From: a virus
Strand: one strand, 5' to 3'
Length of the DNA stretch: 25,708 nucleotides
Virus record (IMG/VR): IMGVR_UViG_3300012954_000063
Span: 1 to 25,708 of that record
The notes beneath the pieces are model-generated. The model saw nothing but the letters and a program-made list of their open reading frames with translations, was not told where the DNA came from and made no database searches. Below, in pieces: positions 2-25,628 of this stretch. Numbering within the stretch: the stretch's first letter is position 1; each line of letters starts with the position of its first letter. Both the position numbers and the translations under genes were made by a program.

Positions 2-973
2 TTAAGAGAAGAGTTTGCACAGAGATATGAGAATGATAAGTCACAGATTGTTGAAGCAATGGACAACATGATGTCAGATGCATTGAAGAAAGAAATTTCA
101 GAATTTGCAGAAGACAAAGCAAAAGTTGTTAAAGAAAGAGTTGCTTATAAAACAGCAGTAGGTGAGCATTCAAATATGCTGTCTAAATTCATTACCGACG
201 CTTTAGTAAAAGAAGTGAAGGAACTTAGAGAAGATAGAGATAATCTCAAAGGTCAATTTACAAAGTTGGAAGACTTTGTAGTCAGACAACTCTCCAAAGA
301 GTTAACTGAGTTTGCACAAGACAAAGCAGATCTTGTTGAGAAGAAAGTACAATTAGTTGCAGAAGGTCGTAAACTGATCGATGAAACTAAAGCGGCTTTC
401 ATCAAAAGAGCGGCAGGTATTGTGGAAAATACAGTTAGTTCAACACTGAAAAACGAAATGTCAGCACTTAAAGAAGACATCAAAGTTGCTAAAGAAAACA
501 ACTTTGGTAGAAAAGTGTTCGAAGCGTTTGCAGGTGAATACATGAGTTCTTACCTCAACGAAGGTGGGGAAATTCGTAATTTGCAACAGCAAATTGCAGA
601 TCAGCAAAAAGCAGTTTCCGAACAGGAAGCGGCTCTAGAGCAAAAAGACGCTGATATCAAAGCAACAGAGACTAAACTTAAGATAGCAGAAGACAAGATT
701 GTTAGAGAAAAAACTCTATCAGAGCTTGTAGATTCACTATCAAAAGACAAACGTCAAGTTATGGTTGAATTGTTAGAATCAGTACAAACAGCGAACTTGA
801 AAAAACAGTTCGAAAAATATCTACCAGCGGTACTAAATGAAGATGTTAAGTCAGACGATGACAAAACAATCATCACTGAGCACACTGGAGATAGAAATAC
901 AAATATTGATGATAACGATTCAATTAATGCAGATATCGTTAATATTAAAAGACTAGCAGGGTTAAGGAGTTAA
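2..973 (+). CDS. 22: Prohead core scaffold protein, gp22-like (5' end outside window)
   Basis: The reading frame is open from base 2 without a start, so the gene begins upstream; 323 codons are visible and the first ATG (59) is probably internal. The protein is charged, almost wholly helical in appearance and rich in Lys, Glu and Gln heptads, as expected for a coiled-coil scaffold. It lies directly before the capsid gene, the place of gp22 in T4, where the scaffold shapes the prohead and is then degraded by the gp21 protease. It holds possible gp21 sites of the (L/I)xE type, for example YLNE|G near 560 and LLE|S near 778. It ends in the motif IKRLAGLRS, which recurs in related form in two other proteins of the window. 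Its last codons contain the AAGGAG ribosome site of the capsid gene. The role rests on composition and position, not on strong residue identity. Confidence 0.75.
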   Translation, partial: LREEFAQRYENDKSQIVEAMDNMMSDALKKEISEFAEDKAKVVKERVAYKTAVGEHSNMLSKFITDALVKEVKELREDRDNLKGQFTKLEDFVVRQLSKELTEFAQDKADLVEKKVQLVAEGRKLIDETKAAFIKRAAGIVENTVSSTLKNEMSALKEDIKVAKENNFGRKVFEAFAGEYMSSYLNEGGEIRNLQQQIADQQKAVSEQEAALEQKDADIKATETKLKIAEDKIVREKTLSELVDSLSKDKRQVMVELLESVQTANLKKQFEKYLPAVLNEDVKSDDDKTIITEHTGDRNTNIDDNDSINADIVNIKRLAGLRS

Positions 974-978
974 ACACT

Positions 979-2157
979 ATGTCAGACAAAACGTTAACAG
1001 AAAATTGGACAGACACTAAATCCGCTCTTCTTGAAGGTTTAAACGGTCAGAAAAAAGAAACTATGAGTGCAATCTTAGAGAACACTCAACAGTACTTGGC
1101 AGAGGCCGCTTCAGCAGGAGCAACAGGTGCCGGCAACGTTGCCGCACTTAACAAAGTGATTCTTCCAGTAATTAGAAGGGTTATGCCTACAGTTATCGCT
1201 AACGAAATCGTTGGTGTACAACCTATGACAGGCCCAGTGGGACAAATCCACACATTAAGAGTTAGATACGCCGATTCGGCTAACGGTATTACAGCAGGTC
1301 AAGAAGCACTTTCACCGGCTGGTATCGCTAGAGGTTATTCAGGTGATGACTCTTCAACTGGTACAACAGCAGATACTACTTCTTCAAAAGAAGGTACTGC
1401 GGGTAACAGACTATCAATTCAAATCTTAAAGCAAACTGTTGAAGCTAAGACAAGAAAACTATCAGCAAGATGGACATTCGAGTCGGCTCAAGATGCTAAC
1501 GCAATGCACGGTTTGGACGTAGAAGCAGAAGTAATGGCGGCACTAGCACAAGAAATTACAGCTGAGATCGATCAAGAGATCATCGGTTCACTAATTTCAT
1601 TAGCAGGTACAGCCGGCGCGGCATACGACCAAGCAGGTGTGTCAGGTCAAGCAACATTCGTTGGAGATCAACACGCGGCATTGGCAGTATTAATCAACAG
1701 AGAAGCAAATAGAATTGCACAAAGAACAAGAAGAGGCGCAGGTAACTATGCTGTTATGTCTCCAACTGCTCTTACAATTCTACAATCAGCGACAACTTCA
1801 GCGTTCGCAAGAACAACTGAAGGTACATTTGAAGCACCAACAAATACTAAATTTGTAGGTACACTTAACGGTGCAATGAGAGTTTACGTAAACTCTTACG
1901 CTTCAGATACTACATCAGTACTGATTGGATACAAAGGTCCAGGTGAAGTAGATGCCGCGGCATTCTACTGTCCATACATTCCTCTAATGTCATCAGGCGT
2001 TGTGATTGATCCATCAACTTTCGAACCAGTAGTGTCATTTATGACAAGATACGGTTACGTAGAGTTGAACAACACAGCATCTTCATTAGGTAATGCAGGT
2101 GACTACGTATCAACTATTGATATGAACACTCACTCAGCTAACTTGAGCTTCATCTAA
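979..2157 (+). CDS. 23: Major capsid protein gp23
   Basis: This 392-aa protein forms the hexamers of the head shell. Residues about 60-95 match the conserved gp23 segment: VILPVIRRVMPTVIA, then GVQPMTGP and a following LRVRY. The N-terminus carries YLAE|AAS at residues 39-45, a match to the gp21 prohead-protease consensus (L/I)xE|A, so residues 1-42 are the probable removed propeptide; LLE|G at 17-20 is a second candidate. An AAGGAG site lies 11 bases before the ATG, inside the end of the scaffold gene, and the two genes are 5 bases apart, so they are likely translated together. A strong intrinsic terminator follows. At 392 aa it is clearly shorter than T4 gp23 (521 aa), so T4's insertion domain is probably reduced or absent. 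Confidence 0.97.
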   Translation: MSDKTLTENWTDTKSALLEGLNGQKKETMSAILENTQQYLAEAASAGATGAGNVAALNKVILPVIRRVMPTVIANEIVGVQPMTGPVGQIHTLRVRYADSANGITAGQEALSPAGIARGYSGDDSSTGTTADTTSSKEGTAGNRLSIQILKQTVEAKTRKLSARWTFESAQDANAMHGLDVEAEVMAALAQEITAEIDQEIIGSLISLAGTAGAAYDQAGVSGQATFVGDQHAALAVLINREANRIAQRTRRGAGNYAVMSPTALTILQSATTSAFARTTEGTFEAPTNTKFVGTLNGAMRVYVNSYASDTTSVLIGYKGPGEVDAAAFYCPYIPLMSSGVVIDPSTFEPVVSFMTRYGYVELNNTASSLGNAGDYVSTIDMNTHSANLSFI

Positions 2158-17036: not shown

Positions 17037-17684
17037 ATGAAGAGTTTTAAACAATATCTAGCGGAAGCAGTAAAAGAAATTCCAGTAAGAATTAAACTGG
17101 CTACAGCAGTAAATGACGAGATGGTAGATACGATTGAGTCTGAATTACAGCGTTATGATGTGGTCAGCGTAGGCAATCCAACTAAAACAATAATGCAAGA
17201 ACACCCACTTGATTTTGGTACAAAGATCAAGAATGCAGAAGTGTTCATTATTGATGCTGTTGTTAGAATGCCAATCAGCTTCGAAACTTTCAGAAGAAAC
17301 TTATCTGACAAGTTAGCAATACCATATGACTATGTTGTTGTAAAAGGTGAGAATGATCCATTAGAAGGCGAAAACGAATTAGAAGTTAAAAGAAACACTG
17401 CTGACCCAGAAGATTATGAAACTAAAATAGGTCAAGACTATACAGATGAAGAAAGTAAAGTTGAAGGTGATCATTTTGGTGAAAAGCACAAAGAGAATTT
17501 TTTAAAAACGTTAGCAGATAACAAAGAGAAAGATCCAGACAGAGCACAGGTTGAAGTAGAAGGTCCTTTAAGCATGAAAAGAGCCGAAGGCGAAAAAGAT
17601 ACTAGTCAGCCAAAAGAAGTAGATGCTAAAGCAAAGTCTCCTCTTTCACAAGATAACAGACCTGCAAACAATTACAGGAAGTAA
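17037..17684 (+). CDS. Putative capsid-targeted internal head protein
   Basis: The first eleven residues, MKSFKQYLAEA, closely follow the capsid-targeting sequence of T4 internal proteins (MKTYQEFIAEA in IPI and IPIII), which directs a protein into the prohead and is removed by the gp21 protease after the Glu. Cleavage here would fall between E10 and A11. The following 100 residues look like a mixed alpha/beta domain (VRIKLATAVNDEMVDTIESE, then EVFIIDAVVRMPISFETFRR). The remainder is very hydrophilic, rich in Glu, Lys and Asp, with DPE, EGD and KEKDPDRAQ stretches and probably no fixed structure. I do not know a homologue of the main domain. If the N-terminal signal is real, the mature protein is packed with the DNA and injected into the host, as T4 internal proteins are. 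An alternative is a structural head component with a processed N-terminus. Confidence 0.75.
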   Translation: MKSFKQYLAEAVKEIPVRIKLATAVNDEMVDTIESELQRYDVVSVGNPTKTIMQEHPLDFGTKIKNAEVFIIDAVVRMPISFETFRRNLSDKLAIPYDYVVVKGENDPLEGENELEVKRNTADPEDYETKIGQDYTDEESKVEGDHFGEKHKENFLKTLADNKEKDPDRAQVEVEGPLSMKRAEGEKDTSQPKEVDAKAKSPLSQDNRPANNYRK

Positions 17685-17688
17685 CGAC

Positions 17689-18174
17689 ATGGAGATCGTA
17701 GAGAAGAAATATGTACTTCAAGTTGCCGACTTAGGTGACTTCGATCTTGATGATGATAGAAGCATTGATTCATCAATTGCTTTTGAATTGAAACAAGCTG
17801 GAATACCAGCAACAGTACATGGCAACGAACACACAAGAGATACAGTTGAGATTGAAACATCAGCAACTTTAGATGAACTAAAGAAAGTATTTCAAGATGC
17901 GGATCTTGCCGCGGAGATAGACATGAAAGAAGATGAACAATACGTGAGAACAGGTCCAGGTCATTTTAAACAAGATGACTTTGTAAGTTCAGTCAAGAAG
18001 TCAAAGAAGTTCAAGTACGTTTCAGCTAAACAAGGTGACAACGCACTTGCTGATGAAGACCAGCAAACTAAAACAAACGAAGCTGAAGAAAAACTTTACA
18101 CACAGCTCAAAGAAGAGTACAGCAAGTTTGTAGAAGACGCTGAAGAAAAAAAAAGACTGAAAAATCAGGACTAA
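17689..18174 (+). CDS. Unknown protein, upstream half of a -1 frameshifted gene
   Basis: I start this frame at ATG 17689 (161 aa), 8 bases after an AGGAAG ribosome site; an earlier start in the overlapping frame would run back into the preceding gene. It begins MEIVEKKYVLQVADLGDFDL, appears to hold a small alpha/beta domain to about residue 90, then RTGPGHFKQDDFVSS and a charged helix ending EEYSKFVEDAEEKK. The frame stops soon after a run of nine A, while the -1 frame is open from 18144 to 18707. Reading through by -1 slippage gives one protein of about 339 aa. Function unknown. It follows the capsid-targeted gene by four bases, so both may be head proteins; that is inference. Confidence 0.7.
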   Translation: MEIVEKKYVLQVADLGDFDLDDDRSIDSSIAFELKQAGIPATVHGNEHTRDTVEIETSATLDELKKVFQDADLAAEIDMKEDEQYVRTGPGHFKQDDFVSSVKKSKKFKYVSAKQGDNALADEDQQTKTNEAEEKLYTQLKEEYSKFVEDAEEKKRLKNQD

Positions 18175-18707
18175 CTGAAAACGACGCCGCGATAGTACAA
18201 GCGTTAAATCGCGATAACTCAGGTCTCTTCAACAAATACAAAACAGAATACGCCAAGGCATTAAACGATGCCAAGTTAATAGCGGATAGAAATCCAAAAG
18301 CATTTACGAATCAAGATATACTTTTACAAACAGCAGTTGGAAATATTTTTAAACAAGGCAGGGCTAGAAATAATTTTGGCAGAATAGTTCCGGTAAATCA
18401 AGATGTTGACAAAATGATCGGAGACATCAAAAGATTAACAGGTGCAGGAATAGGACCTGTGAGAGTTCAAGTCACTAACCTAGAAGACGTTCAAAATATG
18501 TTAAGCAGAATAGCAGTCGGTGAACCATTCTCTGGAATGGAAAACATGATTAAGACTGAAGCAGATGTATATCATTTTAACGGTGTCAGAAGTTTGATAC
18601 TTGACATATTAAGAGGACAAGCCACAGCAACCAGACTTGGTAACTTAGGTGGCGCACTTAAAACAGCGGCCGGCGACATTGCCAGAGCGGCAGGCGTAGA
18701 ACAATAA
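18144..18707 (+). CDS. Downstream half of the frameshifted gene (no start of its own)
   Basis: The frame is open from base 18144, just after a TGA, to TAA 18705-18707. It continues the helical, charged style of the upstream half: KSGLTENDAAIVQALNRDNS, then TNQDILLQTAVGNIFKQ, then a DIKRLTGAG motif and LRGQATATRLGNLGGALKTA. The first ATG in frame is at 18414 and has no ribosome site and no late box, and it would cut off about 90 residues that are clearly protein-coding in style. So I read this as the C-terminal part of the 17689 gene, reached by -1 slippage, or as the result of a one-base error in the A run. The IKRLTG motif resembles the C-terminal IKRLAG of the scaffold and the IKHLAG of the 755-aa protein. 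Confidence 0.65.
   Translation, partial: RKKKTEKSGLTENDAAIVQALNRDNSGLFNKYKTEYAKALNDAKLIADRNPKAFTNQDILLQTAVGNIFKQGRARNNFGRIVPVNQDVDKMIGDIKRLTGAGIGPVRVQVTNLEDVQNMLSRIAVGEPFSGMENMIKTEADVYHFNGVRSLILDILRGQATATRLGNLGGALKTAAGDIARAAGVEQ
18146..18154 (+). other. Candidate -1 ribosomal slippery site (A9 run)
   Basis: In the upstream frame the codons read GAA AAA AAA AGA. A AAA AAA (18147-18153) satisfies the X XXY YYZ rule for -1 slippage. A small hairpin CTGA-AAAA-TCAG (18157-18168) follows within three bases, and a stronger CGCGAT / ATCGCG stem lies at 18188-18213. A lost base in the homopolymer is the plain alternative. Confidence 0.5.
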
Positions 18708-18711
18708 TAAG

Positions 18712-18725
18712 CAAGGAATTCCTTG
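18712..18725. repeat. 14-bp perfect palindrome at the start of the radical SAM gene
   Basis: CAAGGAATTCCTTG covers the AAGGA ribosome site and the first base of the GTG start codon. As RNA it could fold or dimerise and hide the site; as DNA it marks the 5' edge of a gene that looks foreign. Confidence 0.7.
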
Positions 18726-20044
18726 TGAACAAACTTGAAAAAACTAAACAAAGACTAGACACGGTTTCGCCATCATTTTGCCTTGCAAAGTGGCAACAAG
18801 TGACAATACATTTACAGAATGGACATACCCACAGTTGTCACCATCCACAAACACACAAGATACCATTAGCGGAAATTGAAAAAGATCCGTCAGCATTACA
18901 CAACACACTATACAAGAAACAACAGCGTAAACTGATGCTGGAAGGAAAAAGACCTGATGAATGTGGTTACTGTTGGAAGGTGGAAGACACACAGGGAGAT
19001 CACTACAGCGACAGGGTGAAGAAAAGTAGCAACAGCACATGGGCTGAACCTTACTTTGACAAAGTGGCCACGAGTAATTGGGACGAGTCTGTAAATCCTG
19101 CACAGGTAGAAGTCAGTTTTGGTAACGTGTGCAATATGAAATGTGTTTATTGTAGTCCAGTGTTCAGCAGTGAATGGTGGAGTGAAGTCAAGAACCATGG
19201 AGCATATCCCACACAGGACAGTTACAACAATCTTGAATGGATAGCAGAAACAGACAGGACACCATACCTCAACAGGGAAGACAATCCTTACGTTGATGCA
19301 TGGTGGAAGTGGTGGCCGGAAGCCAAACAGGATCTGAAAGTTCTAAGGATAACAGGCGGCGAACCTTTCCTTAACAAGAACACCGCAAAACTGATAAAAG
19401 ACATTGAAGCAAATCCATTGCCAGATATGAGGTTGGAAATAAACACGAACCTCAGCCTGTCCTCGGACATAATAACCAACAACGTACTACGGTTAAAACA
19501 GTTGAAAGAATCAGGCAAAGTCAAAGACGTGATGATATACACCAGTTGTGATTGTCATGGAAAGCAGGCAGAATACATAAGGGAAGGAATGGACTATGAT
19601 AAGTGGTATAGTAACTGTAAAATGGTGGTTAAAAGCGGCATATCCTTGCATATAATGGTGACTGCTAACTTGTTAAGCATTGACACCATGCATGAACTAA
19701 TGACGGACATATACGCTTTAAAACGCGACTATGACGGTGTTACGTACGGTGTTAGCATATTGCATAGCCCTAGTTTCTTGAACCTATTGGTATTACCAAA
19801 AGACGAGTATTGGAAGCAAAAATTTACAGACGTTTTTGAGTATGTGAGCGGGTCTAAACACACAGGAGTGAATGAGTTCAACTATGTGCAACGCTTGATG
19901 AATTATTATAATGAGAATCAGTTAGAAAACAGTGAGCTACAGAAAAGAAGAGTTGATTGCAAAAACTTTGTTCAAGAAATAGACCGAAGACGTAATAAAA
20001 ATTTTACTAATACATTTAGTAACTACAACTTCCTAACCATTTAA
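18725..20044 (+). CDS. Radical SAM protein, twitch/SPASM-like family
   Basis: A 439-aa enzyme with the cluster motif C136-x3-C140-x2-C143 (CNMKCVYC), which binds the [4Fe-4S] cluster that cleaves S-adenosylmethionine, and the GGEPF motif at 211-215. The N-terminus holds the FCLAKWQQ start, C38 in SCHHP and C80/C83 in ECGYCW, as seen in the twitch-type family found in marine phages; the C-terminal part has few Cys residues, so a complete second cluster is not evident. The substrate is unknown; peptide, nucleotide or sugar modification are all possible. It starts with GTG. It uses AGG for Arg repeatedly and is more GC-rich than its neighbours, which use AGA. It separates the terminase subunit genes. 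This looks like an acquired accessory gene (moron). Confidence 0.88.
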   Translation: MNKLEKTKQRLDTVSPSFCLAKWQQVTIHLQNGHTHSCHHPQTHKIPLAEIEKDPSALHNTLYKKQQRKLMLEGKRPDECGYCWKVEDTQGDHYSDRVKKSSNSTWAEPYFDKVATSNWDESVNPAQVEVSFGNVCNMKCVYCSPVFSSEWWSEVKNHGAYPTQDSYNNLEWIAETDRTPYLNREDNPYVDAWWKWWPEAKQDLKVLRITGGEPFLNKNTAKLIKDIEANPLPDMRLEINTNLSLSSDIITNNVLRLKQLKESGKVKDVMIYTSCDCHGKQAEYIREGMDYDKWYSNCKMVVKSGISLHIMVTANLLSIDTMHELMTDIYALKRDYDGVTYGVSILHSPSFLNLLVLPKDEYWKQKFTDVFEYVSGSKHTGVNEFNYVQRLMNYYNENQLENSELQKRRVDCKNFVQEIDRRRNKNFTNTFSNYNFLTI

Positions 20045-20539: not shown

Positions 20540-22150
20540 ATGGTAAGAAAAAGTCTTGAAGGTAACCTAACAAAAAAAGCATACAGCAAGTCAAAATACA
20601 ATGACAAAAAGTTATTAGACTTGAAAAAATGTGCTGATAAGGATAATGGCTACTTGTGGTTCATGGAGAATCATATGTGGATACAACATCCTACTAGAGG
20701 TAGGTTGAAATTCAAACCTTACGAGTTTCAAAAAAGATTATTAGAAACTTATAATGATAATAGATTTGCTATAGCGATGTGTGCCAGACAAACTGGTAAG
20801 ACAACCTGTGCGGCAGGATTTCTGTTATGGTATGCAATGTTCAATCCAGATGTTTTGATTTTAATTGCGGCACACAAATATCAAGGTGCCCAAGACATCA
20901 TGCAACGTGTGAGATTTGCGTACGAAGAGTGTCCTGACTATATTAGATGTGGCGTGACAAGTTACAATAAAGGATCAATGGACTTTGATAATGGATCAAG
21001 AATCATAGCACAGACAACTACAGAAACAACAGGACGTGGTATGTCCATTTCAATGATATACATGGATGAGTTTGCGTTCGTTGAACCACAGACCAAAGCA
21101 CAAGAATTTTGGACTTCCTTATCTCCAACATTGTCAACAGGTGGTAAGTGTATTATTACATCTACACCAAATAATGATGATGATGTATTTGCAGGATTAT
21201 GGAGAGGTGCCAACAGTAAAGTTGATGAGTATGGACAGCCAACAAGAGATGGAACAGGTATAAATGGTTTTAAAGCCATAGGAGTACACTGGAGTGAACA
21301 CCCTGACAGAGATGAAAAATGGGCCAAAGATGAAAGAGCAAGAATTGGTGAAGAAAGATTTAGGCGAGAACACGATTGTGAATTTATTGCTTTTGATGAG
21401 ACACTTGTAGATGGATTGAAGTTAGTGACACTGACCGGCAAAGATCCTCTCTATAAAACAGGACAGGTACGTTGGTATGAAAAGCCAAGGAAAGGAACCA
21501 CATATGTTGCGGCCTTGGATCCTAGTCTTGGTACAGGTGGTGACTATGCCGCCATACAAGTTTATAGTGTTCCTGAGTTGAAACAAGTTGCTGAATGGCA
21601 ACATAATAAAACACCAGTACAAGGACAAGTAAGGACCTTGCTAGGTATATTACAAGAATTAGATACACAATTAAAAGACCTCGGAACACCTAATCCAGAA
21701 TTGTACTGGACAGTTGAGAACAATGCAATGGGTGAAGGTGCTATTGTGTCAATTGAAGAAATGGATGAATCAAAGTTTCCTGGATTCTTTATGCATGAAC
21801 CGAGAAGAGCAGGACAACAACGAAGAGATGTACATAAAAGAAAAGGTTACAACACCACACACAAAGCAAAGATTACGGCTTGTACAAAATTAAAACATTA
21901 TATAGAATCAGGAAAGATGACTGTAAACAGTAGAAACTTGATTAGAGAGTTAAAATTATTTGTTGCCAAAGGAAATTCATATGCGGCCAAACTAGGTGAA
22001 AATGATGATTTAGTATCAGCGACTCTTTTGTGTTGTAGGCTAGTGCAATACCTAACAAGATATGATCCTATATTTGAAAAAAGTCTAGGATTAAGAGATG
22101 AGGATGATGAGGGCGATGGTTCTGTAGTACCAATGCCTATGATCATATAA
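20540..22150 (+). CDS. 17: Terminase large subunit gp17
   Basis: The packaging motor ATPase and headful nuclease, 536 aa (T4 610). The N-terminal ATPase has Walker A ARQTGKTT at 82-89 and Walker B MIYMDEF at 172-178 with D176/E177. A coupling-type TSTPNNDDD segment follows near 215. The C-terminal RNase-H-like nuclease has its acidic residues in ALDPSLGTGGDY (D327), ENNAMGEG (E393) and NDDLVSATLL (D489/D490), corresponding to the D, E and D triad of T4 gp17. All key residues are present. The gene has no ribosome site but a perfect late promoter five bases before ATG. It is separated from gp16 by four genes, including the radical SAM gene. Confidence 0.97.
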   Translation: MVRKSLEGNLTKKAYSKSKYNDKKLLDLKKCADKDNGYLWFMENHMWIQHPTRGRLKFKPYEFQKRLLETYNDNRFAIAMCARQTGKTTCAAGFLLWYAMFNPDVLILIAAHKYQGAQDIMQRVRFAYEECPDYIRCGVTSYNKGSMDFDNGSRIIAQTTTETTGRGMSISMIYMDEFAFVEPQTKAQEFWTSLSPTLSTGGKCIITSTPNNDDDVFAGLWRGANSKVDEYGQPTRDGTGINGFKAIGVHWSEHPDRDEKWAKDERARIGEERFRREHDCEFIAFDETLVDGLKLVTLTGKDPLYKTGQVRWYEKPRKGTTYVAALDPSLGTGGDYAAIQVYSVPELKQVAEWQHNKTPVQGQVRTLLGILQELDTQLKDLGTPNPELYWTVENNAMGEGAIVSIEEMDESKFPGFFMHEPRRAGQQRRDVHKRKGYNTTHKAKITACTKLKHYIESGKMTVNSRNLIRELKLFVAKGNSYAAKLGENDDLVSATLLCCRLVQYLTRYDPIFEKSLGLRDEDDEGDGSVVPMPMII

Positions 22151-22168: not shown

Positions 22169-24436
22169 ATGGCAGTAAATTATTCATCAGTAGCAGAAAA
22201 GATTTTTAGAGTACTCAAAGGTTCTGGATACAATCTTAAGATGTATGACAACAATGAGGGCTCTGAAGTAGCAGATCCACAACAGGCTAGGTTTTTTTAC
22301 GTACAAGATCCTAACTTAATGGTAAATTTAGATGATAAAAATGCAGAAATTAAGATGCACAAAGGCCCTACAAATATAGCTCAAGTGCAGAAAACATTAG
22401 ATTTGCTTAAAAACCTTTCAAAAACTAACCTTTTGGACTTTGATTTAAGGGAGTTTGGTAAGGAGATTAAGCCCAAAAATTATACATTTAGGTTAAATAC
22501 AAATACTATGTCAGACAATATACAAACAGAAGGCCTTAGTGCGCCTATCGGAACACCGAAAACTAGTTCACAGCATCTCGAAGGTGCTAAACTTTTAATT
22601 AAACATCGTAAACCTGTAAACGAAGAAGTTCCAGGTTCTAGATCGAGAAACATCAAAGCGTTGTACGTTGAAAACGCAGATGGCGAAAGATTCAAATATC
22701 CATTCATACACTTGAATGGTGCTAGAGCGATGACAAGACACGTACAAGCAGGTGGCACACCTTACGATGAAGTAGGCCAATCAATCACTGGCATGAGTGA
22801 GCAGTTAAGCAAAATTAGAGAAGTATTAAATGTAATGAGAAGATCACCGGCTGTGCAAGAACAAGCGGGATCAGTCATGAACAGTCTTCTTGCAAGACAA
22901 GATAGATTAAGAGAGACAGTAAAAAGATTAACAACAGCAGAAGGTTACAGAACATATGCTGAAGCATACACAGTACCAGTTAAAAAAGAATTTGACCAAG
23001 AAGTACTAAATGCTATGAAAGAAAAATTCACAGTAACAAATGTTGATAACAGAATTGAAGAATTATTACCATTTATCACAGAAGTAAATGATGAAGAAAA
23101 CACTCTTGACAATTTAAGAAACGTTGTAAAAAATAAAATGGCTAGTGCAGAGTTCCATGAACCAACTGAAAAAGATATTGACACAATGCCAATACAATTT
23201 ACAAATGATGCTATGAAGATCGCGGCGAGACTAGCACTAGTTGCCAAACTTGCAAAAGACGATGAAGTATCAGGTTACCTTTCAAGAATGGCGGCGAAGT
23301 TAAGAGGCGAAGATAAAGAACCAGCTGGCGGAAGTGATGCAGTTGATAAAAGACCTTACACAAAAGATGACATACAAGTTATTCTAAAGATGTTAGATGA
23401 CGCAAAAGTTAAAGCAATCATTCAACAAGTTGAAACCGGTAAAATGAAAATGATGCAGAATCCAGGAGATGACGCTTATGACAAAGCAGTTGCTGGTGAA
23501 TCAGTATTACCGGAACTAAAACAGATTGACGAGTCATTTGAAAGAATGCTTGGAATGTTTTCACCATCACATATTCACGTGTCTGAAAACGATGGTGATC
23601 CAGAAACAGATTTCACAAAATGGTTAAAAATGAATTACAACAAAACTCCAAGAGATCTATCAGCGGAGCAATACGCAATATTTTCAAAAGAGTTTAGAAA
23701 ACAAATGAAAAAGGAAAGCGAAACAGTAGAAGAAGATACTGTAGAAGAAGATAACGCTTTCAACACAGCGGCGGCTAAGGCGGCAGTGGCAGGAGAAAAA
23801 ACTTTTAACTTTAACAACAAATCTTATCCAGTTAAAATGAGCAAAGAAGATGCACAGAAATTACTCGATGAGAATGAAGCTGATATGGGTAGATTTTCAC
23901 AGACAGCACAGAACAAACCAGTTATGTTCAAAGGTAAACAGATAGATTTGGATTCTGTTGAGTATGATATGCAAGATTACAGCGATATGATATATGAACT
24001 AGAAGCCGCAAAATACACAGACGGCACAGATGTTGCTGATGAAGATTTAGAAGATTTAATGTATGATGAACAAATGATGGATTGGGTAGGACAAGACTAC
24101 ATGGACAGAATGCAAGATAGAGCAGACATGATGCGTGACAGCAAAGAAGAAGATTCAGTTAAAGAAGGCGGAAACGCTTTTGATATAGCAATGGGTGACG
24201 CAGAAGCCATTATATCAGATGCCTCAGGTGATAAAGAAGCAATGGATAACCTACAAAGACTACATGATGATGAAGATGATGCGTATGCAAAATCAACTAT
24301 CAAGGACTACATGAGTAGATTGGAAAAAGAAGGGTTATTCAGAATGCAAAGAGATATTGCTATGGCGGACAACGCTGGTCCTGAAGAATCAGTGGATCCA
24401 ACACTATCAAGAATCAAGCATTTAGCAGGTATCTAA
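22169..24436 (+). CDS. Large conserved phage protein, function unknown (755 aa)
   Basis: The N-terminal 100 residues form a mixed alpha/beta region (SSVAEKIFRVLKGSGYNLKM). At about residues 165-205 lies a segment with GERFKYPFIHLNGARAMTRH, then VQAGGTPYDEVGQSI, which I know as a conserved stretch in hypothetical proteins of marine T4-like phages. Then come helical regions, a stretch around residues 530-570 (AVAGEKTFNFNNKSYPVKMS) and a very acidic C-terminal third rich in Asp, Glu and Met. It ends in SRIKHLAGI, close to the scaffold's terminal IKRLAGL. The acidic, helical make-up, the late promoter and the shared tail motif suggest a head-assembly or internal head protein; this is inference and no enzyme motif is visible. 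A terminator follows immediately. Its position between TerL and gp32 is unlike T4. Confidence 0.82.
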   Translation: MAVNYSSVAEKIFRVLKGSGYNLKMYDNNEGSEVADPQQARFFYVQDPNLMVNLDDKNAEIKMHKGPTNIAQVQKTLDLLKNLSKTNLLDFDLREFGKEIKPKNYTFRLNTNTMSDNIQTEGLSAPIGTPKTSSQHLEGAKLLIKHRKPVNEEVPGSRSRNIKALYVENADGERFKYPFIHLNGARAMTRHVQAGGTPYDEVGQSITGMSEQLSKIREVLNVMRRSPAVQEQAGSVMNSLLARQDRLRETVKRLTTAEGYRTYAEAYTVPVKKEFDQEVLNAMKEKFTVTNVDNRIEELLPFITEVNDEENTLDNLRNVVKNKMASAEFHEPTEKDIDTMPIQFTNDAMKIAARLALVAKLAKDDEVSGYLSRMAAKLRGEDKEPAGGSDAVDKRPYTKDDIQVILKMLDDAKVKAIIQQVETGKMKMMQNPGDDAYDKAVAGESVLPELKQIDESFERMLGMFSPSHIHVSENDGDPETDFTKWLKMNYNKTPRDLSAEQYAIFSKEFRKQMKKESETVEEDTVEEDNAFNTAAAKAAVAGEKTFNFNNKSYPVKMSKEDAQKLLDENEADMGRFSQTAQNKPVMFKGKQIDLDSVEYDMQDYSDMIYELEAAKYTDGTDVADEDLEDLMYDEQMMDWVGQDYMDRMQDRADMMRDSKEEDSVKEGGNAFDIAMGDAEAIISDASGDKEAMDNLQRLHDDEDDAYAKSTIKDYMSRLEKEGLFRMQRDIAMADNAGPEESVDPTLSRIKHLAGI

Positions 24437-24575: not shown

Positions 24576-25628
24576 ATGGCTACATTAGAAGAAATCCGTG
24601 CGAAACTGGCGGAACAAGAAAAAAAGACTTCAGGCGGAGGTCAAGTTTCAGATAACGCAATATTTCCTTTTTGGAACATTCCAGAAGGAACAACTTCAAC
24701 TCTTAGATTTTTACCAGACGCAAATAAAGACAACACGTTCTTTTGGGTAGAAAGAGCAATGATCAAGTTACCTTTTCCAGGTATCAAAGGTCAAGCAGAC
24801 ACTAAACCTACTATCGTACAAGTACCTTGTATGGAGATGTTTAATGAACCTTGCCCAGTACTTGCAGAAGTAAGAACTTGGTTTAAAGATCCTGCATTAG
24901 AAGACATGGGAAGAAAATATTGGAAGAAGAGAAGTTACATCTTCCAAGGTTTTGTAGTTAACTCAACATTAGATGAAGAAACTACACCAGAGAATCCAAT
25001 CAGACGATTCGTAATTAATCCATCTATTTTTAACATTATTAGATCGGCATTGATGAATCCAGAGATGGAAGACCTACCAACTGATAATGAATCAGGAAGA
25101 GATTTCAAATTAACGAAAACTCAAAAAGGTGGTTATGCTGATTACTCAACTTCAACGTGGAGTTTCAAGGCAAGATCATTAGGTGAATCAGAAAGATCAG
25201 CGATTGATCAATATGGTTTACATAATTTAAGTGATTATATGCCAAAGAAACCTTCACAGGAAGAGCTTAACATAATTCAAGAGATGTTTAAAGCATCTGT
25301 TGATGGTGAGCTTTACGATCCAGACAGATTTGGTCAGTACTACAAGCCAGCAGGCTTTAGTAACAATTCTTCGTCTGGTGGTTCTACTGCGACTGCAAAG
25401 CCAGTAGAAACAGTTGCTCCAGCAGTTGCACCAGCAACTGAAACTGTAGCACAACCGGTTCAATCAACTCCTGAACCAGCAAAAGTTGAAGTCACAGAAA
25501 CAGTGACAGCAACGGCTAGTGAACAACCTGCACCTGCAACCGCAAGTGCAACGGCTACTGAAACAGGTGGTAAGGTATCTGCAGAGGATATCTTGTCAAT
25601 GATTAGAAGTAGACAGGCTGGCAAGTAA
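24576..25628 (+). CDS. 32: Single-stranded DNA-binding protein gp32
   Basis: gp32 coats ssDNA during phage replication, recombination and repair. The N-terminus [14 protein letters not shown] corresponds to the T4 cooperativity region. [20 protein letters not shown] matches T4 [36 protein letters not shown] and later [17 protein letters not shown] match T4 VKRKTSYWANILVV and KYRFGKKIWDKINAMI. The zinc site is degenerate: C85 and C93 remain but the last Cys of CPVC is Leu96, and no equivalent His is obvious. The C-terminal 90 residues are a Pro/Ala/Thr/Val linker ending [16 protein letters not shown], basic at the very end, unlike the acidic tail of T4 gp32. An AAGGAGG site lies 5 bases before ATG. 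It is 350 aa (T4 301). Confidence 0.92.
   Translation: [350 protein letters not shown]

Follow-up and report, generated by a model that had tools for sequence, protein, structure and literature searches.

Proteins without other likeness share a short C-terminal motif in a large group of T4-type phages, and the motif is best explained as the docking end of a gp22-like prohead scaffold that other proteins probably copy to enter the prohead. The carriers that recur as a pair in distant phages are the scaffold itself and a 755-aa protein encoded beside the terminase. The initial annotation of the DNA had read the common ending as a short docking signal of unrelated head proteins. Computation supports that idea through the same gene pair in distant phages, hypervariable linkers in front of the motif and nine carrier groups by single linkage, but not the internal copy that had been placed in a frameshift product.

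Genomic setting and the two copies of the motif

The window, that is, the whole stretch of 25,708 bases analysed here, is the IMG/VR virus record IMGVR_UViG_3300012954_000063, and its source is a T4-superfamily myophage. Judged by the capsid protein, the cultured phages nearest to it among the matches listed are Sinorhizobium phage Phosso (68.9%) and Escherichia phage EC22.5-2 (62.5%). When 12 kb of the window were compared with phages by megablast, no match was returned. Further late genes run between gp23 and the terminase region (Table 1). An ORF at 18725-20044 (+), between the head genes and the terminase, has a CNMKCVYC-type motif, from which it is labelled a putative radical-SAM gene.

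The ORF at the left edge is assigned as the gp22-like scaffold from position and architecture. It abuts gp23, with its upstream side outside the window, and the order protease, scaffold, gp23 is found in phage PA5oct (gp331, head maturation protease; gp330; gp329, major head protein). AlphaFold2 folds its full-length relative in locus L001 (362 aa, 98% identical) into a long helix. No gp22 family model matched the ORF; the only hits it gave were to PHROG 10922, whose function is unknown, and, weakly and under the cut-off, to Pfam. In large phages, PA5oct, RaK2 and CBB among them, 'virion structural' proteins align with the 755-aa protein, in no case beyond its residues 1-346; its PA5oct homologue, gp278, bears an ESI-MS/MS note in the annotation, and its Phosso homologue (XYS97569) has 976 aa. 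A Foldseek search of its model against the PDB returned nothing at E 0.001 or better.

The scaffold's C-terminus reads DIVNIKRLAGLRS. The endings reported initially are both present, NIKRLAGLRS in codons 941-970 of the scaffold, with the stop at 971-973, and SRIKHLAGI at the end of the 755-aa ORF, and a profile scan of the window finds only these two C-terminal copies at 13 bits or more. The proposed third copy, DIKRLTGAG at 18423-18449 (+), does lie in the frame that follows the presumed frameshift, but it is no copy of the motif: it is without the LAG[IL] core, is non-terminal and scores below 13 bits, compared to 18-28 bits for the training copies. The frameshift region itself consists of two ORFs in different frames (17689-18707, +) joined at an A8 run near 18147, likely a programmed frameshift or a frame error in this gene upstream of the terminase.

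The two 33-base motif stretches agree in just 14 bases, and their likeness is thus one of peptide, not of recent copying. The trailing RS codons of the scaffold (AGG AGT, 965-970) overlap the AAGGAG that precedes the capsid start. Other scaffolds trail off in -K, -EK, -NK, -KF or nothing and, given this variation, the motif itself is taken to end with LAG[IL]; the conserved RS of the window scaffold need not belong to it.

Table 1. Features of the window and carriers of the motif in related loci (window coordinates unless a locus is named)
Feature	Position	Strand	Remark
gp22-like prohead scaffold ORF	2..973	+	5' end outside window; directly upstream of gp23
Predicted prohead-protease site I-T-E	872..880	+	17 codons before scaffold motif
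Putative docking motif DIVNIKRLAGL	932..964	+	core IKRLAGL 944-964; 25.3 bits by profile
AAGGAG, Shine-Dalgarno-like site of capsid gene	964..969	+	read from sequence; start at 979
Major capsid protein gp23	979..2157	+	Pfam Gp23 3.7e-100; PHROG match; candidate docking partner
Predicted gp23 cut YLAE/AASAG	within 979..2157	+	N-termini of 6 relatives by eye: L[AMV]E before [ATNS]
Terminase large subunit	20540-22150		name from matches to annotated terminases
755-aa protein	22169..24436	+	first ~330 residues match PHROG 13484 'virion structural protein'
Putative docking motif TLSRIKHLAGI	24401..24433	+	end of 755-aa protein; 25.1 bits by profile
gp32-like ssDNA-binding protein	24576-25628		
Carrier: gene just upstream of terminase	L100 5664-7172; L126 7096-8310; L090 7164-8306		
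Carrier: gene just downstream of 755-aa homologue	L100 11473-11970		
Carrier: ~210-aa protein	L298, L305, L331		
Carrier: 418-aa family	L306 and relatives		
Carrier: ~80-aa protein beside DNA polymerase	L293, L333, L317		
Carrier: 178-aa protein	L318		matches PHROG 13138 'virion structural protein'

Recurrence and C-terminal placement

The regular expression proposed at the outset, I[KR][RH]LAG[ILV], matched nine times in 3,514 phage ORFs from the genomes and contigs assembled for this analysis, and all nine matches lay within 6 residues of the C-terminus, although several are mutually related and do not represent nine independent events. A looser expression was 7.5 times denser at C-termini (28 in 24,598 positions) than elsewhere (122 in 802,298). 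In Phosso (2 of 693 ORFs) and contig G001 (2 of 119), its C-terminal matches were the scaffold and the 755-aa homologue and nothing else; the same pair was matched in G008 (2 of 57 ORFs) and, together with one N-terminal match, in G007 (2 of 59). Additional C-terminal matches occurred in G009 (one), G011 (two) and G012 (one).

A profile built from scaffold C-termini only placed the 755-aa homologue ahead of every other ORF in 9 of 12 contigs (G016 included, the CBB and EC22.5-2 parts left out), the ranks being not fully independent since the phages are related. First place was taken in Phosso (1/692), G001 (1/118), G007 (1/58), G008 (1/56), G009 (1/75), G011 (1/430), G015 (1/63), G016 (1/67) and the window (1/24), with a thin lead over the runner-up in G001 (8.2 vs 7.7) and G011 (10.2 vs 8.6); lower ranks were obtained in G013 (2/119), G012 (375/510) and PA5oct (113/457). 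When the last 12 scaffold residues had been used earlier as a BLOSUM62 query, the homologue ranked first in just 2 (G007, G015) of the 13 contigs or parts with both genes, since this query extended beyond the motif.

Degenerate DNA for RIKxLAGI followed by a stop was found at 50 loci in 2.9 million IMG/VR contigs. At 43 of them an ORF of at least 60 aa ends in the match, the tails being of 25 distinct kinds, and further proteins of this phage clade are matched at 40 of the 50. Among the 50 ORFs are 24 clear and 2 weak (E about 1e-3) homologues of the 755-aa protein and 2 scaffolds. The reordered controls RIKxALGI and RIKxLGAI gave 9 and 7 loci, with one and zero ORFs of at least 60 aa, respectively; three of the nine loci of the former match a clade protein, the radical-SAM gene only, and their ORFs have 4 aa. 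Three of the 50 pattern loci (L334, L338, L340) have short ORFs of 9-37 aa and were judged chance matches; another (L325), portal-like by eye and without match to five clade proteomes, is probably one as well.

Motif anatomy and predicted structure

The eleven-residue consensus is [ED][LI]xx[IL][KR]xLAG[IL]. Across 63 distinct 11-mers the positions hold E/D; L/I; any residue; R by preference; I/L/M; K/L/R; K/R/H; L/I; A; G, present in all 63; and L/I. Hydrophobic residues recur every three positions, and the helical hydrophobic moment is not above that of shuffled sequences (0.277 vs 0.307). AlphaFold2 predicts a helix at residues 744-753 of the 755-aa protein (block pLDDT about 62-64) behind a stretch below 50 (735-742), and one at 348-357 of the L001 scaffold behind 318-346, likewise below 50. 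Both models are of low confidence at the tail and show no more than a separate element there; the predicted arrangement in both proteins is a disordered linker that leads into a short helix at the C-terminus.

Within the scaffold family, the motif is kept in every one of the 50 loci with an intact 3' end, 43 recognised by regular expression (42 and L052) and L044-L050 carrying it as ILYLAGINK; the remaining three of 53 loci (L043, L051, L053) have a cut 3' end. One I and the L, A and G columns are invariant in 18 aligned scaffolds. In 43 close relatives, 20 distinct linkers precede the motif, and LAG is constant in protein with synonymous differences around it.

Carriers of the motif

Applied at 17 bits to 1,021 distinct ORFs from loci L001-L145, with four named-phage loci left out, a profile trained partly on sequences it then finds returned 82 copies, 60 of them C-terminal, 21 internal and one N-terminal; one shuffle of each of the ORFs returned none. 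This partly self-trained profile also gave the bit scores in the window and the tails grouped next. The bodies behind 91 distinct tails fall by single linkage into nine groups, a number to be read with the caution that shared modules may merge families, that six groups have 1-3 members and that a single-member group may be due to chance. Internal head location is shown for few of the groups.

The 755-aa family is itself not uniform. Among 41 distinct complete homologues, the motif is terminal in 23 and only internal in 8, and 10 have none by profile, four of these showing RLRQLAG[IL] near the end by eye; the homologues of PA5oct, RaK2 and CBB are without it. PA5oct has copies on two other proteins, gp281, which is equivalent in position and has them at residues 3-13 and around 244, and gp249 (around residue 155), both annotated as structural with an ESI-MS/MS note. 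The internal and N-terminal copies imply that a free end of chain is not required.

The terminase-upstream carrier of L100 shows a weak endolysin/peptidoglycan-binding match at about 229-308, below the Pfam cut-offs, and its product is possibly an encapsidated wall enzyme. In L300 (8857-8883), L295 and L321, which have the same tail, a motif-bearing ORF has at its end, in another frame, an intact TRIKKLAGI-stop that may be a frame-shifted relict or a recoded tail. Further modules recur in the L330 and L300 carriers and in the 755-aa protein of the window, ENAFN..AA.AA.AG...F.F..K.Y..KM and a CWDGYKKDGTKMKGGVRVNNCVP stretch, with weak PHROG hits.

A protease-like site before the scaffold motif

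The T4 prohead protease gp21 cleaves after L/I-X-E, according to the available text of PMC9026906. In 18 aligned scaffolds [IL]xE is followed by a TG[DN][RK] segment and then the motif, and the E column is invariant. A strict [IL]xE within 45 residues upstream of the motif is present in all 32 distinct scaffold tails, in 5 of 34 tails of the 755-aa group and in 1 of 14 of the remaining seven groups. The pooled count (38 of 80) is within the shuffled range (mean 28.1, max 40), and the relaxed [ILVMF]xE[ASTN] is found in 46 of 80 tails compared to a shuffled mean of 18.2. The idea of a cleavable linker for all carriers was dropped, the strict site being met almost only in scaffolds. This distribution makes loss of the scaffold end at maturation plausible, and loss of the cargo's end is not supported by it. 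In PA5oct, MS notes are attached to the carriers gp281 and gp249 and not to the scaffold gp330, a pattern that degradation of the scaffold would produce.

Discussion

Based on the collective evidence, the motif would work as follows. A short terminal helix on a flexible linker would tether the rod-like scaffold inside the growing prohead, most likely at the inner face of gp23, although scaffold, portal and protease are candidate partners beside the capsid protein. The 755-aa protein, the product of the terminase-upstream gene and more would have acquired a scaffold-type end, or internal copies of it, and would be carried into the prohead through mimicry of the scaffold. After assembly, the prohead protease would probably cut the scaffold before its helix. 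The solved systems described in the available text of PMC12005531 have the coat-binding region of the scaffold at its C-terminus; for HSV-1, the part bound by the capsid protein is the C-terminal 25 residues of the UL26 and UL26.5 products. The same precedent weighs against the closest alternative, that the motif binds the scaffold core helix to helix, such that cargo joins the core and not the shell. T4 internal proteins co-purify with gp22, as stated in the accessible part of PMC9026906, and the scaffold is predicted as a long helical rod, both consistent with core binding, which we nonetheless regard as unlikely.

The invariable L/I-X-E of the scaffold tails could be taken to mean that the motif recruits or presents its carriers to the gp21-like prohead protease and so marks them for processing; in T4, processing also takes place at the C-terminal ends of gp21 and Alt, as far as the text available of PMC9026906 describes. 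The rarity of the strict site in the 755-aa group argues against this reading, to which we give only a small chance. A mobile coding segment, spread by recombination without function of its own, would account for one tail on unrelated bodies, and other modules recur in the carriers too; yet LAG stays constant with synonymous differences while linkers turn over, and the few bases common to the two window copies speak against recent copying, making this explanation very improbable. Tags of the ssrA type have a hydrophobic C-terminal end. The motif's own end recalls them, which might suggest a tag for breakdown by ClpXP or another host protease; however, the residues that trail the motif vary (RS, K, NK, EK, TSN), copies occur internally and N-terminally, so that the recognised free C-terminus of an ssrA-like degron is not a property of the motif, and the PA5oct carriers are noted in virions. 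We consider a degron highly improbable. Chance similarity of two C-termini, conceivable for so short a motif, is refuted by the controls (placement of regular-expression matches, shuffles, reordered patterns and scaffold-only profile).

The preferred reading, a scaffold docking end copied by cargo, has partial parallels in known systems. HSV-1 UL26 and UL26.5 are encoded by overlapping genes, in contrast to the unrelated proteins that carry the present motif. One C-terminal end, common to their two products, binds the major capsid protein (PMC12005531, text available in part). In phage P22, the C-terminal part of the scaffold brings proteins into the shell; the available description (PMC9962691) is of man-made fusions with 66-163 residues (238-303, 141-303), in contrast to the natural 11 residues of the motif. 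Phage P1 DarB is sent into the head by a short terminal signal; that signal is N-terminal, and the accessible text of PMC9024508 reports no consensus among the Dar proteins.

The motif would work like the capsid-targeting sequence (CTS) of T4 IPII and IPIII, about ten residues common to otherwise dissimilar internal head proteins and, in the portions available of PMC9958956 and PMC9026906, described as N-terminal, removed by gp21, sufficient in fusions and absent from other T4 core proteins. Our motif is likewise a short sequence across dissimilar proteins, those of the nine groups. It differs from the CTS in being mostly C-terminal (only one of the 82 copies is N-terminal), in being shared with the scaffold and in mostly lacking a strict cut site in cargo. 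CTS-type starts exist as well: MKTYQEFIAEA in the T4 genome and, resembling it, MKSFKQYLAEA in a 215-aa protein of the window (17037-17684, +), followed by an L-A-E/A cut, with relatives starting MKSF..YL[AT]E[AS]. One head may therefore use two address systems. By eye, the scaffolds of T4 (gp22), S-SSM5 and C48C1 have short helix-like ends that differ from the motif, and in these controls, T4 and two of cyanophage type, that last helix of the scaffold has no clear counterpart on another protein. A 221-aa ORF of S-SSM5 (151664-152326) has near its end NYVDTMARY, which resembles the scaffold end KYVDALARW (score 28 vs next 15) and is possibly a parallel case in cyanophages. A literature search, with subscription papers and preprints largely outside its scope, returned no C-terminal motif common to scaffold and internal proteins, and the literal motif strings had no match within the same scope.

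Lastly, the motif bears on how the interior of large heads is furnished. A 2023 review states, in the text available, that the mechanisms localising certain T4 scaffolding-core proteins 'remain mysterious', the known signal being absent from other core proteins (PMC9958956). A motif common to scaffold and cargo makes this question directly testable. We tentatively suggest a general C-terminal 'zip code' for the head interior, by which any protein ending like the scaffold might get loaded, an idea we hold at somewhat less than even confidence. If the proposal is true, it would provide a sequence rule that predicts encapsidated, possibly injected, proteins in large phages with poor annotation, and a small tag with which proteins could be loaded into large heads. 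The motif would then represent a natural modular packaging signal that is used across many protein families and is distinct from the N-terminal signal of T4.
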